From: a bacterium
GTDB taxonomy: Bacteria > Campylobacterota > Campylobacteria > Campylobacterales > Sulfurimonadaceae
DNA: 64,000 nt
Assembly (NCBI GenBank): GCA_018824305.1
Contig: JAHJGM010000026.1
Span: forward strand, 62,001 to 126,000
Reading direction: 5' to 3'
This document shows, one piece after another, positions 13,879-19,416 of the stretch (its first letter is position 1; the number at the start of each line of letters is the position of its first letter). The notes under the pieces are model-generated. The model searched no databases and was not told where the DNA came from. It saw only the letters and a list, made by a program, of their open reading frames with translations. The position numbers were made by a program, and so were the translations under genes.

Positions 13879-15084
13879 CTAGACAACAAAAATGATCGTA
13901 AATATATTTTTTTCATCTTTATGATGATATTCCAACTTAAAACCGTGCTTTATCACTATTTTGCTTACGATATTCAGACCCAGTCCAAACCCGTTTTGCA
14001 CCCTGTTTTTTTGCGTAAAAGCCTGAGTATAGTATTTGAACTCGTTTTCCAATCTCTCGCCGCTGCTTATAACCGATATTGCTTTTTCTTTTGCCTCTAT
14101 GACTACCGGTTTTGATGTCGAATATTTCAATGCGTTGTCTATAAGATTTTTCAGCGCAGTGGTAAGATAATGCAAATCGCCGTATATCTCGAAATCTTCT
14201 ATCTCGACTTGTATCTCTTCCTCGTTTTCGATGTAAAGTTTTGACAGAGCTTCAGCAATAAGGGTCTGTGCCTTAAATCTTGTATACTCAAACAGATCCT
14301 CTTTGTTTAAAAGCTGCATCTGAAGTATTTCGCTTGTGAGATTGTCCAACTCATTGAGAACTCCTTTTAATATCTCCTTTTCTTTTGAGTCAAATATTCC
14401 CTCCAGTGCAAATTTTCCCTTTGCGATGGGCGTTCTCAGTTCATGTCCCACGTCTCTTAAGAGTTCCTCTCTTACATGTAACGCTTCTTGGAGTTTGGAT
14501 GCCATCTCGTTAAAGTTATATGAGACGTCGCCTATCTCGTCTTTTGTACTGACAACGGCGCGAACCGACAGATCGCCTTTGGAAAACTGTTTCATCTTTT
14601 GACTTATATATCTCAAAGGAGAAAGGATTTTTAGGATAACCAGATAGATGACAAGCATCAAAATCACATCTAAAAACACAAGTGCATTTGTCACATAACG
14701 CTCATTTATATTTTCTTCTTGAGCATCATCGTATAAAAGCAGTTCAAAATTGAGATATTTCATGTAAAGATAGTATTTATCGGAGTGTTTTAATATTTTC
14801 AAAGCACCGAACGTATGAGGCTGTTCAAAAATGATTTGTGCATTTTTCACTATGTTTGTATCATCGACCCTACTAAGCCCCAGTTCGGATATCTTGTTCT
14901 CTAGTTGCCGGATCTGTCTGTTAATGAGAGATGAAAACAACTCTTTTGCACTTGTTCTATAGCTATTTTGCTGAATGATCTCGGCTTTTTGAAGGCTCGT
15001 CTTTTCGACCCAGTATCCGATGAGGCTCATAGTCACAAGACTGCTAAGAAAGAGTATGGTTATCTTTTTTTGTATAGACATCAT
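13879..15084 (-). CDS. Sensor histidine kinase of the SHP-cytochrome operon
   Basis: A 401-aa membrane kinase. A transmembrane helix at residues 8-22 and a second at about 133-152 enclose a periplasmic sensor of roughly 110 residues. A HAMP linker (FSKGDLSVRAVV) precedes the dimerisation domain with the phospho-acceptor in GHELRTPIAKGK. The ATPase domain has LIDNALKYS (N box) and GFGLGLNIVSKIV (G2 box). It resembles the ArsS/CpxA class. It is last in a six-gene operon; the cognate regulator stops one base before its start. The sensed stimulus is unknown, but the Spy-like and heme proteins upstream suggest envelope or redox stress. Confidence 0.9.
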   Translation of the reverse strand: MMSIQKKITILFLSSLVTMSLIGYWVEKTSLQKAEIIQQNSYRTSAKELFSSLINRQIRQLENKISELGLSRVDDTNIVKNAQIIFEQPHTFGALKILKHSDKYYLYMKYLNFELLLYDDAQEENINERYVTNALVFLDVILMLVIYLVILKILSPLRYISQKMKQFSKGDLSVRAVVSTKDEIGDVSYNFNEMASKLQEALHVREELLRDVGHELRTPIAKGKFALEGIFDSKEKEILKGVLNELDNLTSEILQMQLLNKEDLFEYTRFKAQTLIAEALSKLYIENEEEIQVEIEDFEIYGDLHYLTTALKNLIDNALKYSTSKPVVIEAKEKAISVISSGERLENEFKYYTQAFTQKNRVQNGFGLGLNIVSKIVIKHGFKLEYHHKDEKNIFTIIFVV

Positions 15085-15756
15085 CTATCCTATAAATTTA
15101 TATCCTATGCCCCAAACAGATTTAATATATTTTGCCTCTTTGGAATCATCGCCTATCTTTTGACGGATATTGCTGATGTGCATATCAATAGTCCTGTTCT
15201 TTGTGTCTTCATGAAGGGAAGTCGCATTGACAAGCTGCTCTCTTGAGACTACTTTATTGTGATTTTTTAAGAGATGGACAAAGATCTCAAACTCCACTTT
15301 TGTCAACTCTATGGGATACTCTTGCAGCAATACTTCATGACTGGATTCATCGACGGTAAAATCGGATATTTTCAATCTGTCGCTTTTTTGCGCGCGTTTA
15401 AGCACCGCTTCTATGCGCAGTACGAGTTCTCTTGGCTCATAGGGCTTTGCAAGATAATCGTCCGCACCGATCTCAAAACCGTGTATCTTGTTTCCGATAT
15501 CGCCTCTGGCAGAAGAGATGATAATGGGTATATCGCCGTATTGTTTGAGTGTTTTGCATACGTCAAAACCGTCCATCTCGGGAAGCATCAGATCCAAGAT
15601 GACTATGTCGTATCGCTCTTTGTTCTTTTTAAAATCCTCTATGGCATCTTTGGGATTGATATATGGCGTGACCTCATAACCGTAGTTCACCAGATAATTG
15701 ACGATGAGTTCCTGCATCTGTGTTTCATCTTCGATGAGAAGAATCTTTTTACTCAA
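15085..15756 (-). CDS. OmpR-family response regulator
   Basis: A 223-aa regulator with an N-terminal receiver domain and a C-terminal winged helix. The acidic pocket (IEDE), phospho-acceptor Asp55 in VILDLMLPEMDG and a conserved Lys in YLAKPYEPRELVLR are visible. The DNA-binding half shows LTKVEFEIFVHLL and ends VWGIGYKFIG, typical of OmpR/PhoB. It overlaps the Spy-like gene by eight bases and abuts the kinase. A tandem 11-bp repeat in the operon's promoter region (18321-18342) has the geometry this family binds, so autoregulation is likely but inferred. Confidence 0.93.
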   Translation of the reverse strand: MSKKILLIEDETQMQELIVNYLVNYGYEVTPYINPKDAIEDFKKNKERYDIVILDLMLPEMDGFDVCKTLKQYGDIPIIISSARGDIGNKIHGFEIGADDYLAKPYEPRELVLRIEAVLKRAQKSDRLKISDFTVDESSHEVLLQEYPIELTKVEFEIFVHLLKNHNKVVSREQLVNATSLHEDTKNRTIDMHISNIRQKIGDDSKEAKYIKSVWGIGYKFIG

Positions 15757-16138
15757 CTTCCCACTCCCTGATATAGTATAAAAAGAGTTCTCTTTGCTTT
15801 GGAGTCAAGACGTCGTGAATATTTTTAAACATATCTGCCTCTATATTTATCGACTCGCTCTTTAACTCCATCAAGAGTTTTGTATATCCCTCTTTATCAA
15901 AATCATCGTCTAAAAACAGGCGTTTTATCTTCATCTGCGTGAGTTCTTTTTGCTCATGAAGCTCTTGGAGCTTTTTGCTGTTTTTTGAAAGGATCTGAGA
16001 TATTTTTTCCTGTTGTTCATGATCGAGATGCAGATATCCAAGGTCTCTTGGCATATGAAATTCATGCTCTTCATGCTGATGTTTCTCTTTGCCAAACGCA
16101 AAAGAAAAAAGAAGTAAAAAAGCTAAAACTATCTTCAT
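15749..16138 (-). CDS. Spy/CpxP-like periplasmic protein
   Basis: A 129-aa exported helical protein. The signal peptide is MKIVLAFLLLFSFAFG, followed by a histidine-rich stretch (KEKHQHEEHEFHM) that could bind metal. The helical body begins at LGYLHLDHEQQEKISQIL, and an LTPKQRELF segment near the C terminus matches the LTxxQ motif of the Spy/CpxP/CnrX group. Such proteins act as periplasmic chaperones or as inhibitors or sensors for two-component systems. Encoded immediately before a response regulator and kinase, it is a good candidate accessory sensor. It overlaps the cytochrome b gene by four bases (ATGA). Confidence 0.82.
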   Translation of the reverse strand: MKIVLAFLLLFSFAFGKEKHQHEEHEFHMPRDLGYLHLDHEQQEKISQILSKNSKKLQELHEQKELTQMKIKRLFLDDDFDKEGYTKLLMELKSESINIEADMFKNIHDVLTPKQRELFLYYIREWEVE

Positions 16139-17250
16139 ATCGTCTCTTTTATCCGAGGTATCTTTATATCCGTATCTTCAATAAGCCCGCTCTCTATATT
16201 TTTGTGACAGGCTTTACAGTTTGCTTTAGATTTTATCTCATTTGAGCTAAATATATTTTTATCTATGCTCTCATGTCTCTTTTTCCAATAGGGTGTCTGT
16301 GTTATGGCTATTATATCTTTATTCTCCTGCATCGATTTTAGAATATAAAACGCGCTCTCTTTTGTGGAGCTTTCAGCCGAATTACTCAGCAGATATTCTT
16401 TTATGGACAGCCTTGTCTTATCATCTAGTGAAGCATCGTCGCCAAAATGGTTTTGTAAATCATCCATCACTTTGCTCCATGACTCACGAGATAACAGGTG
16501 CGGCGGATACAGAGTATGGCAAGAGCCGCATTCCGCTACGAAAGCGGGATGCTCTTTAGCATAAGAGATTGCGCTGTACTGACTCTTTGTCAGAACAGAG
16601 TTAAAAAAAAGCGAATAAAAAAGCACCCCTGCCGCCAAACCGAGGGCAAAAAGTGAAAACAGTTTTTGAAACCAGTTCAACGTTACACTCGGTGCATCTA
16701 TGTTTTTGTGCCCGTTTACGATAGAACCCAAAGTATCGGTCTTTTTGTCTATGAGTCTGTCAAATGCCACTCCGCCTAGATGTGCGGCTATGAGTATCAT
16801 CAACAGTGTCGAAAAAAACTCATGTATCTCTTTAAAAAGTTTCATCTCTTTAAAGTAAGGAGAGTTCAAAAAGCCGAGTATCCCTCGTCCCTCTTGGATG
16901 CCGTATGCAAGTATTCCTGTAACTACCGTTAAAAACACAACACCAATCATACTTATCATCACAAAAGAGGCAGCAGGATTGTGTCCCGCATATTTTTTAT
17001 GATCGAAGATGTTAAAGACAAACTCTTTTAGCTCTTGAATCCTCAAAGGAAAATCGGAAAATCTTGAATATTTCGGTCCGATAAATCCCCAGATAATTCT
17101 GTATATGACAAGCACGCCTACCACGTAGCCCAGACTTGCATGGATATTTAAAAGATTGTCCTCATCTCCGCTCAAAAATGCTGCCACTATAAAACCAGCG
17201 AACATCATATGAAACACGCGCGTAGGAACGCTCCAGATATATGCCTTCAT
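16135..17250 (-). CDS. Cytochrome b561-type membrane protein fused to a diheme cytochrome c
   Basis: A 371-aa fusion. Residues 1-180 form a four-helix cytochrome b561 (SHP-type b) with candidate heme ligands in RVFHMMF, NIHASLGY, the HEFFSTLL helix and AAHLGG. A further transmembrane helix (FALGLAAGVLFYSLFF) leads to a periplasmic domain with two heme c sites, CGSCH and CKACH. That domain resembles the separate diheme cytochrome encoded next door (ESWSKVMDDLQNHFG against RSWSKMMDTLDNHFE). It could pass quinol-derived electrons to the diheme protein and SHP. A repeated, fused DHC-like domain is unusual and suggests duplication. Confidence 0.88.
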   Translation of the reverse strand: MKAYIWSVPTRVFHMMFAGFIVAAFLSGDEDNLLNIHASLGYVVGVLVIYRIIWGFIGPKYSRFSDFPLRIQELKEFVFNIFDHKKYAGHNPAASFVMISMIGVVFLTVVTGILAYGIQEGRGILGFLNSPYFKEMKLFKEIHEFFSTLLMILIAAHLGGVAFDRLIDKKTDTLGSIVNGHKNIDAPSVTLNWFQKLFSLFALGLAAGVLFYSLFFNSVLTKSQYSAISYAKEHPAFVAECGSCHTLYPPHLLSRESWSKVMDDLQNHFGDDASLDDKTRLSIKEYLLSNSAESSTKESAFYILKSMQENKDIIAITQTPYWKKRHESIDKNIFSSNEIKSKANCKACHKNIESGLIEDTDIKIPRIKETI

Positions 17251-17259
17251 TTAGACTCC

Positions 17260-17835
17260 TTAGTCGTCCCATCTTCCGTAGTTTGGAATATTTATAGCTC
17301 TTTCAGAGTAAATCCCCTGATTCGCTGTCGTATGACATGCAGCACAGTTTGCAATGCTTTTGACCTCTTTTTGTTCGATAAGACGTTTTGGTATGCCTCT
17401 ATGCTCTTTCATAAAGTACGGCGTCTGGCTGATTCTCAGCGGTGCTTCATCTCTTGGCACACTGTTTGACATCTTTGAAAAATGCTTCGTGGTATATTTA
17501 GAATCCCCTGCATTGCTTGTCAGATATGTCAAAATTGTCTTATGGTCATTTACATCAAGCGTTGCATCGGTCTCAAAATGGTTATCAAGTGTATCCATCA
17601 TTTTGCTCCATGAGCGTTTTGGCAAGAACTCCGGCTGATATGCCATGTGACAAGAGCCGCACTCTTTTTGATAAAGAGTTTCAAACTCGTTTAACTTCTT
17701 CTTTGGCATATCCGGCTGAACTGCTTTTTCACTTTTTGCATACACTTTTCTTTCATATCTTTCATCGTCCGCAAAAAGTGCTACTCCGCCGATGAGTGTT
17801 GCAGCACTTACTGCCATTATCAAATACTTTTTCAT
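17260..17835 (-). CDS. Diheme cytochrome c (DHC-like)
   Basis: A 191-aa periplasmic protein with a signal peptide (MKKYLIMAVSAATLIGGVALF) and two heme-binding sites, CGSCHMAYQPEFLPKRSW near residue 57 and CAACH near residue 167. Paired with a DUF1924/SHP cytochrome and a b-type cytochrome, this matches the diheme cytochrome c that reduces SHP in Rhodobacter and Shewanella. It is nine bases from the membrane fusion gene and 13 bases from SHP. The C-terminal half of the b561 fusion repeats its domain plan. Confidence 0.9.
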   Translation of the reverse strand: MKKYLIMAVSAATLIGGVALFADDERYERKVYAKSEKAVQPDMPKKKLNEFETLYQKECGSCHMAYQPEFLPKRSWSKMMDTLDNHFETDATLDVNDHKTILTYLTSNAGDSKYTTKHFSKMSNSVPRDEAPLRISQTPYFMKEHRGIPKRLIEQKEVKSIANCAACHTTANQGIYSERAINIPNYGRWDD

Positions 17836-17848
17836 CTTTTTTTCCTTT

Positions 17849-18253
17849 TTAATAATTTCGTATAAATGTTAGGACATCACCTTTTTCAAGAGCTGTCCCT
17901 TCTCTGTTATAGACGTCGTTAAAATTACGTCTCAACCATTTTTTTACATTTTTGACATCGCTCAGTCTCTCTTTATTGGCCTTTGGTGAAAGAGGGTCGA
18001 TCACTTTTGCCGTAAACACGTTTTCTCCGGCTTTGTTCAGGTCATTCGTATGACAGCTGGCACAAGAGATCTTTTTGCCTTTTTTGCCTACATGTTCGGA
18101 GAAAAACAGCTTTTCTCCCCTTTTTGCATCAAAACCGCTAAACGATGCATCCGTTTTTTTTGCCTCATCCGCTAGAGTCTGCATATATCCCTCGATCGGA
18201 GCTGCAAGACCCAGTGTTGCTGATAACCATAAAACTGTTAAAACTTTTTTCAT
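17849..18253 (-). CDS. SHP-type monoheme cytochrome c (DUF1924)
   Basis: A 134-aa secreted c-type cytochrome with signal peptide MKKVLTVLWLSATLGLAAP and a single CASCH site near residue 64. The pattern RGEKLFFSEHVGKKGKKISC followed by TNDLNKAGEN and a C-terminal VKKWLRRNFNDVYNR matches the sphaeroides heme protein (SHP, DUF1924) family. Characterised SHPs are high-spin and bind O2 and NO with an Asn ligand; the Asn residues after CASCH could serve. It heads the operon, with AGGAG before the ATG. Confidence 0.88.
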   Translation of the reverse strand: MKKVLTVLWLSATLGLAAPIEGYMQTLADEAKKTDASFSGFDAKRGEKLFFSEHVGKKGKKISCASCHTNDLNKAGENVFTAKVIDPLSPKANKERLSDVKNVKKWLRRNFNDVYNREGTALEKGDVLTFIRNY

Positions 18254-18285: not shown

Positions 18286-18291
18286 ATTATC
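18286..18291 (-). promoter_or_regulatory. Candidate -10 box for the SHP operon
   Basis: GATAAT on the minus strand, 33 bases upstream of the SHP ATG. The position where a -35 should be (AGGCCA) does not match the consensus, so the promoter would need an activator. Tandem repeats lie directly upstream. Confidence 0.3.
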
Positions 18292-18320
18292 ACGCAAAAC
18301 AATCAAGATGGCCTGCACAG

Positions 18321-18342
18321 TTTCTTGACACTTTCTTGACAC
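18321..18342. promoter_or_regulatory. Tandem 11-bp direct repeat, candidate response-regulator operator
   Basis: TTTCTTGACAC occurs twice in perfect tandem (18321-18331 and 18332-18342) between the divergent SHP operon and hemW. On the minus strand each unit reads GTGTCAAGAAA. Two 11-bp direct repeats, one helical turn apart, is the site geometry of PhoB/OmpR regulators, and the operon encodes one. For the SHP operon the repeats fall just upstream of the presumed -35, while for hemW they supply TTGACA hexamers. Confidence 0.5.
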
Positions 18343-18349
18343 ATTGCGT

Positions 18350-18355
18350 TATAAT
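18350..18355 (+). promoter_or_regulatory. Candidate -10 box for hemW
   Basis: TATAAT lies six bases before the hemW ATG at 18361, with TTGACA 19 bases further upstream inside the tandem repeat. If this is the promoter, the transcript is almost leaderless; a second start further into the gene cannot be excluded. Confidence 0.45.
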
Positions 18356-18360
18356 TTCGG

Positions 18361-19416
18361 ATGCTACTTTATATACACATCCCATTTTGCGATTCCAAAT
18401 GTTCATACTGCTCTTTTAACTCTTATGTGGACAAGTTCCATCTCAAAGAGAAATATATGCGATCCTTGCATCTGCAGCTTGCCCATGAACTCAAAAAGTT
18501 TGACGTAAAAGAAAAAGAGATCGAAACTGTTTTCATCGGCGGGGGGACTCCATCGACTGTTCCTGCGAAGCTCTATGAAAAGATTTTTGACCTCATAAGC
18601 CCTTATCTCCAAGATGATGCGGAGATAACCACAGAAGCCAATCCAAACAGTGCCTCGCGCTCTTGGATAGAGGGGATGAAAGCTCTGGGTATCAACCGTA
18701 TCAGTTTCGGAGTGCAAAGTTTTGACAATAAAAAACTCAAGTTTTTAAACCGCGCGCACAATAGAGATGATGCCATCCGTGCTGTTACCGATGCCTCACA
18801 TGTAGGGATACAAAACATCTCCATAGATATCATCTACGCAACGATGCTAGATACCAAAGAGCTTCTGCAAGAGGACTTCAAACAGGCATTTTCATTACCT
18901 ATCAACCACATCAGTGCTTATGCACTTACCATCGAAGAGGGTACGCCTTTTGAAAAGACTCCCGATGTCGCACGTGAAAAGCTTTCTTTGACAAACTTTG
19001 TCTTTGAGACAATCAAAAAACATGGGTTTTCCCAATATGAGATATCAAACTTCGGAACCTACAAAAGCAGACACAACCTCGGATACTGGCAGTATAAGAA
19101 CTACATCGGTGCTGGAAGCGGAGCCGTGGGATGTAAAGATGGAGTGAGGTACTATCCTTCGACGGACATAGAATTTTACATACAAAACCCTTTACATGTA
19201 AGAGAGGAAAATCTAAGCGCAGATGAACAAAAAGCAGAAAAACTGTTTTTGGGGCTTAGAAGCATCGTCGGGGTGGATGAGAAGATTTTCTCTCACGATG
19301 AATTACAAAGAGCAAACCTGCTTGTAAGTGAAAAAAAACTTCTAAAAAACGAGTCTGTCTTTTATAATAGAGATTATTTACTCAGCGATGAGATAGCTCT
19401 ATTTATCTTAAACTGA
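18361..19416 (+). CDS. hemW: HemW-like radical SAM protein (heme chaperone)
   Basis: A 351-aa radical SAM protein of the HemN/HemW family. The 4Fe-4S cluster motif is CDSKCSYCSF (Cys10, 14, 17). FIGGGTPSTVPAKLYEKIF, ITTEANPNS, RISFGVQSFDNKKLKFLNRAH and IDIIYATM follow the family order. The lack of the extra HemN cysteine and the length favour HemW, a heme-binding chaperone that inserts heme into respiratory enzymes, rather than the coproporphyrinogen oxidase. It is divergent from the SHP cytochrome operon, which may share its promoter region. Confidence 0.9.
   Translation: MLLYIHIPFCDSKCSYCSFNSYVDKFHLKEKYMRSLHLQLAHELKKFDVKEKEIETVFIGGGTPSTVPAKLYEKIFDLISPYLQDDAEITTEANPNSASRSWIEGMKALGINRISFGVQSFDNKKLKFLNRAHNRDDAIRAVTDASHVGIQNISIDIIYATMLDTKELLQEDFKQAFSLPINHISAYALTIEEGTPFEKTPDVAREKLSLTNFVFETIKKHGFSQYEISNFGTYKSRHNLGYWQYKNYIGAGSGAVGCKDGVRYYPSTDIEFYIQNPLHVREENLSADEQKAEKLFLGLRSIVGVDEKIFSHDELQRANLLVSEKKLLKNESVFYNRDYLLSDEIALFILN

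Follow-up and report, generated by a model that had tools for sequence, protein, structure and literature searches.

A six-gene operon in the window (the whole stretch of 64,000 nucleotides that was analysed, from a member of the Sulfurimonadaceae) encodes, with a probability that we put at about 0.7, an electron branch that leads from quinol to the cytochrome SHP and controls its own expression. Besides SHP, the operon carries genes for a soluble diheme cytochrome c (DHC), a cytochrome b561 fused to a second DHC domain, a Spy/CpxP-like periplasmic protein, an OmpR/PhoB-type response regulator and a membrane histidine kinase. The proposal draws on the recurrence of this gene order among relatives, on a tandem repeat at the SHP promoter that is likely to be the DNA switch of the operon's own regulator, and on the Spy/CpxP-like protein, which by sequence comparison is a constant and apparently new member of SHP operons in Campylobacterota. 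In addition, the fused cytochrome gene is very probably decoded by a +1 frameshift in most Arcobacteraceae-type orthologues.

Open reading frame (ORF) analysis places the six genes in one operon running from 18253 to 13879 on the minus strand (Table 1), the coordinates also given in a preliminary description of this DNA, with intergenic gaps of +13, +9, −4, −8 and 0 bp along the operon. The gene set described there, with its short gaps and overlaps, was confirmed by ORF, Pfam, PDB and NCBIfam comparisons, and the comparison of neighbourhoods in relatives that it had proposed shows the order recurring. A match to PF09086 (SHP) was found in 50 of the 200 genomes of the window's family, one of which (G178) is weak and lacks the operon. 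At 43 of the 49 family loci (window included), all five partner genes lie close to SHP and share its strand; of the remaining six, four end at the edge of a contig, L064 has no detected DHC, and L048 is laid out differently and has no sensor genes. Named genomes were scanned as well, in a set that overlaps the family set and of which the best 80 of 175 loci were used; it gave 64 loci with at least 3.9 kb downstream, and 61 of these carry DHC, cytochrome b, Spy-like, regulator and kinase genes in that order, the departures being L188, L196 and L208. Since the order recurs across relatives, chance or an annotation artefact is ruled out as a source of the gene set. Some variants of the layout were seen. 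In L048 (genome G017) the SHP operon is divergent and has the order DHC-SHP-cytochrome b; in L220 SHP is followed directly by the Spy-like, regulator and kinase genes, and the genes for DHC and cytochrome b run in the opposite direction; and in L078 (G139) a 417-aa ORF, perhaps an inserted mobile element, lies within the cytochrome b/DHC gene.

Table 1. Features of the SHP operon in the window, and loci of relatives with a split fused cytochrome gene.
Feature	Coordinates	Strand	Evidence
SHP, monoheme c-type cytochrome (DUF1924), CxxCH	17849..18253	-	PF09086 4.6e-35; R. sphaeroides SHP 1dw0 3e-17
DHC, soluble diheme cytochrome c	17260..17835	-	PF09626 5e-39; PDB DHCs 3u99, 2fw5
Cytochrome b561 fused in frame to a second DHC domain (CytB/mDHC chimera)	16135..17250	-	PF01292 residues 6-179; DHC 238-355, 3e-32
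Spy/CpxP-like periplasmic protein, N terminus His-rich	15749..16138	-	Family profile against Spy, 4.5e-10
OmpR/PhoB-type response regulator, TTG start as called	15085..15756	-	Pfam and NCBIfam searches
ArsS-family membrane histidine kinase	13879..15084	-	NCBIfam NF038389, 280 against a cut-off of 250 bits
Candidate box of the operon's response regulator: 11-bp direct repeat TGTCAAGAAAG TGTCAAGAAAC (T)	18319..18341	-	Repeat search, conservation
Candidate promoter: TTGATT (18306-18301), -10-like GATAAT (18291-18286)	18286..18306	-	Column conservation; -10 reading inferred
Split fused cytochrome gene in relatives: L304-L306, L308-L314, L316, L318-L334; in the named set L160, L162, L164, L179, L201, L210			

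The box upstream of SHP reads TGTCAAGAAAn TGTCAAG, a direct repeat with a period of 11 bp (window copy TGTCAAGAAAG TGTCAAGAAAC), and tandem sites with this spacing are expected for regulators of the OmpR type. It is present in 46 of the 48 family SHP upstream regions that were long enough, and with period 11 in 65 of 78 upstream regions of the named set, where nine other periods each gave 0 or 1 of 78; upstream of other ORFs within the named-set loci it was found in 3 of 224 cases. The pattern TGTMAAGARANTGTMAAG, with one mismatch allowed, has a single site in the window's genome, at the SHP promoter. Within the family, a looser 17-base pattern was matched in 39 of the 50 genomes with SHP and in 13 of the 150 without it (reversed control, 1 of 200). 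L048, whose operon lacks two-component genes, also lacks the box. The single site in its own genome and the conservation of the repeat at the SHP promoter fit a dedicated, self-regulating two-component system, and the sequence evidence makes the box a likely candidate for the switch of the operon's own regulator. What had been called self-regulation is therefore backed by a conserved box that is single in the genome and missing along with the sensor genes in L048, while binding of the regulator to it is a prediction.

Between the box and SHP, most relatives have TTGACA where the window has TTGATT, and two columns of the region are strongly conserved (A52 and T56, each 44/47). A standard -35/-10 pair (TTGACA with TATAMT) is ruled out by a spacing of only 9 bp; TTGACA may be the -35 element of a weaker -10 located 17 bp further on, or an inverted third half-site. 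On its other side the box is separated by some 20 bp from the start of hemW, a heme-chaperone gene in divergent orientation (TIGR00539; window 18319-18361), so that the regulator could also touch heme handling. A divergent neighbour of 351 aa is found again in each of the four further SHP-bearing genomes compared from the genus.

Taken alone, the Spy-like protein of the window falls below the Pfam cut-offs (PF13801, 26.6 against 29.2 bits; PF07813, 21.2 against 24.3 bits), and profile A2, made from 45 operon homologues, matches E. coli Spy (4.5e-10) and CpxP (6.7e-4). Its structure model (pLDDT 87.4) gave Z scores of 9.4 with CnrX, 8.4 with Spy and 7.7 with CpxP, and of up to 8.7 with unrelated helical chains, where for helical bundles a Z below 13 may reflect a common arrangement only; the scores lend some support, short of proof, to the hooked helical-hairpin fold of the Spy/CpxP family. 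Its tie to SHP is close. In a set of 298 genomes from the order, SHP passes the cut-off in 63, the Spy subfamily is present in 61 and both occur together in 57, the two genes being no more than 3 kb apart in all 57 genomes; the subfamily is found in 57/63 genomes with SHP and 4/235 others (Fisher P 4e-49, uncorrected for kinship). In the window its gene and that of the regulator overlap by 8 bp, and in modules without SHP, as in G132 (C13), G146 and G080 (C3), it is still found together with the regulator and kinase genes, so that the Spy-like protein most likely belongs to the sensor module. The window's own genome carries a second module of this general kind (L269:6108-9061; G000:C13), in which a Spy-like (LTXXQ) gene precedes those of a membrane protein (DUF4405), of an OmpR-type regulator and of a kinase, and which adjoins a b-type-cytochrome-like gene.

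In the proposed branch, electrons would pass from quinol through the b561 hemes to the fused diheme domain, then to the soluble DHC and on to SHP, a path that follows from the known families and from the scheme of Meyer et al.; transfer from DHC to SHP has been reported for R. sphaeroides (cited in PMC2909971). In SHP, the heme with its Asn ligand may become accessible to O2, NO or some other small molecule. By its anatomy, the pair of Spy-like protein and kinase would form a periplasmic sensor, as CpxP, ZraP and CnrX are sensor partners in their own systems, and the signal is most likely a periplasmic redox, metal or misfolding stress. The kinase would then phosphorylate the regulator, which would bind the tandem repeat in front of SHP and so activate every gene of the operon, including those of the regulatory system itself, activation being the expected direction. 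A redox-sensing or detoxifying role for the operon is a guess.

The heme-ligand feature looked for in SHP is present, as alignment to 1dw0 places N110 of the window protein at the sixth-ligand position, and alignment to the R. sphaeroides SHP gives Asn there in 49 of 49 family loci. The cysteines of the C89-C97 disulfide are absent, in the same alignments, from the window SHP and from all 49 family loci. Loss of this disulfide has already been reported for three epsilonproteobacteria, Meyer et al. (2010) tie the disulfide to release of the sixth ligand, and in cytochrome c'', an SHP homologue, the sixth ligand stays on when the disulfide is reduced (PMC2909971). With the disulfide linked to ligand release missing, binding of O2 or NO is conjectural for Campylobacterota SHPs, and the earlier label of an O2/NO-binding type denotes a family resemblance and no established property.

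Several points weigh against a self-controlled branch of this kind. The sixth ligand of an SHP without the disulfide could remain bound, and the structure model of the kinase sensor is poor (pLDDT 70.5), with no usable structural match found for it. SHP occurs without the Spy subfamily in 6 of 63 genomes and the subfamily without SHP in 4. Among SHP-free genomes with a close Spy protein, G099, G126, G130 (C66) and one of the G132 copies (C18) show contig-end fragments of operons, and G132 (C13), G146 and G080 (C3) have the modules named above. The box is missing from 2/48 family and 13/78 named upstream regions, several of which look degenerate; one of the family misses is L048, and in the other, L049, the contig stops before the sensor genes. 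The looser pattern was also matched in the 13 SHP-negative family genomes, of which 11 were opened, with 7 sites within coding sequence and 4 intergenic.

It is possible, though unlikely, that the Spy-like protein, regulator and kinase are an ArsS-type sensor of acid or general envelope stress, with the SHP branch as one output beside porins and small membrane proteins. The kinase scores above the cut-off of the NCBIfam 'ArsS family sensor histidine kinase' (NF038389), and passages of PMC2736386 describe the ArsS orthologues of H. pylori and W. succinogenes as responding to acid. Boxes also stand before other genes in relatives, so that the regulon may be wider in other species, but in the window's genome there is no second box with one mismatch or fewer. 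These further promoters precede porin-like genes in L108 (G100), L254 (G132) and L261 (G080), and, in L083 (G058), a small ORF (about 34 codons, hydrophobic) with the same layout of box and promoter; similar sequences lie near 7080 of L263 (G016) and near 6901 of L257 (G130). The box-fronted porin-like gene of G132 adjoins a Spy-regulator-kinase module without SHP, and that of G080 lies about 48 kb from such a module on the same contig.

A metal-stress system, in which the His-rich Spy-like protein would bind Cu, Zn or Ni like CnrX or ZraP and the cytochrome branch would repair or avoid damage, is rather improbable. The best matches via structure are CnrX chains, Metal_resist is the commonest Pfam family among the 45 Spy-like members (36/45), H108 is invariant in their alignment, and metal efflux genes adjoin SHP operons in Ruegeria and Caballeronia and also in Chromatiaceae (PMC2909971). 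Set against this are the weight that a Z score below 13 can bear for helical bundles, the poor conservation of the His-rich N terminus among relatives, and the operon neighbours, which vary by genus (compared by size only). That the sensor genes are mere hitch-hikers whose regulator acts elsewhere is very improbable, for although R. sphaeroides (PMC2909971) and L048 have SHP operons without sensor genes, and Spy-regulator-kinase modules exist without SHP, the box stands at the SHP promoter in many genera and is single in the window's genome.

In the window's lineage the fused cytochrome gene is in frame. It was matched in 69 of 104 Arcobacteraceae-type genomes, and 47 loci were examined, the other matches being distant or partial; one locus (G576) was unparsable and two (G542b and G575) are of a more distant type, leaving 44 orthologues, of which 16 are in frame and 28 are split by a +1 frame break (Table 1). 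The break falls at the identical codon in 28/28 split loci, where CxxCHTLY is followed by TAT-CCC-[AT]CC. The shift site is CCC TCC in 19 and CCC ACC in 9; at this position the 16 genes in frame carry CCT, CCA or ACT. The frame-0 stop is the sixth codon past CCC in 27 of 28 loci (later in G477), and over 105 codons past the site the +1 frame is free of stops in all 28 while both other frames contain stops in all 28. Substitutions past the break, by codon position of the +1 frame, are 0.33, 0.19 and 0.49, as a +1 reading predicts, and mean pairwise protein identity is 0.68 past the break and 0.64 before it. Each of the other five operon genes was found in 17 of 17 split loci with wide flanks. 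From these sequences, the gene is very probably decoded by a +1 shift at UAU_CCC_[U/A]CC, immediately behind the fused domain's first heme motif, without which most orthologues of the Arcobacter family could not give the full b561-diheme protein; that the shift is regulatory is doubtful. Sequencing error is ruled out by the same break in 28 genomes, many of them single-contig; gene fission by a diheme domain cut mid-way and by a second piece that, over the part read, shows no signal peptide; and transcript slippage by a site without a long homopolymer run.

CCC is a minor proline codon (137/1636, shift sites included). In the complete genome G207, proline is served by a single tRNA (UGG), and the tRNAs found there for Thr (only UGU) and Ser (only UGA and GCU) imply wobble reading of ACC and TCC too. 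Together with its upstream codons, the motif occurs in 14 of 398 genomes of the order, all of the Arcobacteraceae-type family, and the break was seen in six of the best 80 named loci, including A. cryaerophilus, Malaciobacter halophilus and Poseidonibacter lekithochrous. A tree of the pre-break part requires 9 state changes, of which well-supported branches force 5, and none of the bootstrap trees manages with a single change; split and in-frame states both occur within genera, with at least 5 changes in which gain and loss are indistinguishable. A 7-bp hairpin just upstream of the site is present in 28/28 split genes, but in 12/16 in-frame genes too, and no downstream stimulatory structure was found at the shift site (mean z about -0.2). 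None of 20 other TATCCCWCC sites in four genomes is an in-frame TAT CCC WCC, a count of little weight, as only 3 are on the coding strand. Passages of PMC5009743 give CCC_UCC as a published +1 shift site of Listeria phage PSA, which resembles the present case in its shift site (the commoner one here) and in a low-GC host where CCC is rare. The Arcobacteraceae case differs in being a cellular respiratory gene, in having ACC as second codon in 9/28 loci and in the absence of a detected downstream structure. No paper was found that pairs Arcobacter with 'ribosomal frameshift' or 'programmed frameshift', the main text of the GeneTack paper (PMC3711429) has no mention of cytochrome, Arcobacter, CCC, proline or Campylobacter, and the available passages of the A. 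butzleri genome paper (PMC2147049) do not touch the fused gene. The frame break looks new.

Much of the operon itself is already known. Two papers that name DUF1924 were found. SHP-DHC-b clusters, as the preliminary description had said, were described by Meyer, Kyndt and Cusanovich in 2010, who also reported the b/DHC chimera (Campylobacter fetus, Arcobacter butzleri, Sulfurospirillum and Wolinella), kinase and regulator genes accompanying most SHP operons, and the missing SHP disulfide (PMC2909971). The fused diheme domain and the operon-borne regulatory module had been singled out as distinctive; the chimera and the kinase and regulator were already published, and the Spy-like member, unmentioned in PMC2909971 as is the promoter box, is the part that looks new along with that box. 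The epsilon operons of that paper share with the window SHP, sDHC, the CytB/mDHC chimera, a kinase and regulator within the operon and the lack of the C89-C97 disulfide, and differ in that no Spy-like gene or box is named and that an accessory protein, Orf1, pairs with another kinase type, SK1; the Aliarcobacter loci of the named set carry the window's type of kinase. The SHP operon of Ruegeria sp. THAF33 likewise has a periplasmic accessory protein, a regulator and a kinase, in this order, beside cytochrome b, SHP and DHC, but there the accessory protein is annotated as PepSY, and the sensor is encoded upstream of cytochrome b in a branch arranged b-SHP-DHC; the Caballeronia operon has a regulator and a kinase with no periplasmic partner annotated. 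CpxP-CpxAR, Spy, ZraP-ZraSR and CnrX also combine a small helical periplasmic protein with an envelope sensor, whereas the window protein is operon-internal and cytochrome-coupled, and its kinase is of the ArsS type, not CpxA.

The presence of a Spy-like protein in Campylobacterota where Ruegeria has PepSY suggests that one and the same branch was coupled to different kinds of periplasmic sensor, depending on the lineage. With a unique box and a dedicated three-part sensor, the purpose of SHP becomes testable through the signal that drives the promoter. In the Arcobacteraceae-type relatives, the shift site would, if the +1 reading is true, determine how much of a short cytochrome b form is made relative to the full b561-diheme electron carrier. 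Confirmation of the break would make it a case of conserved +1 recoding in a cellular respiratory gene, which is a rare kind.

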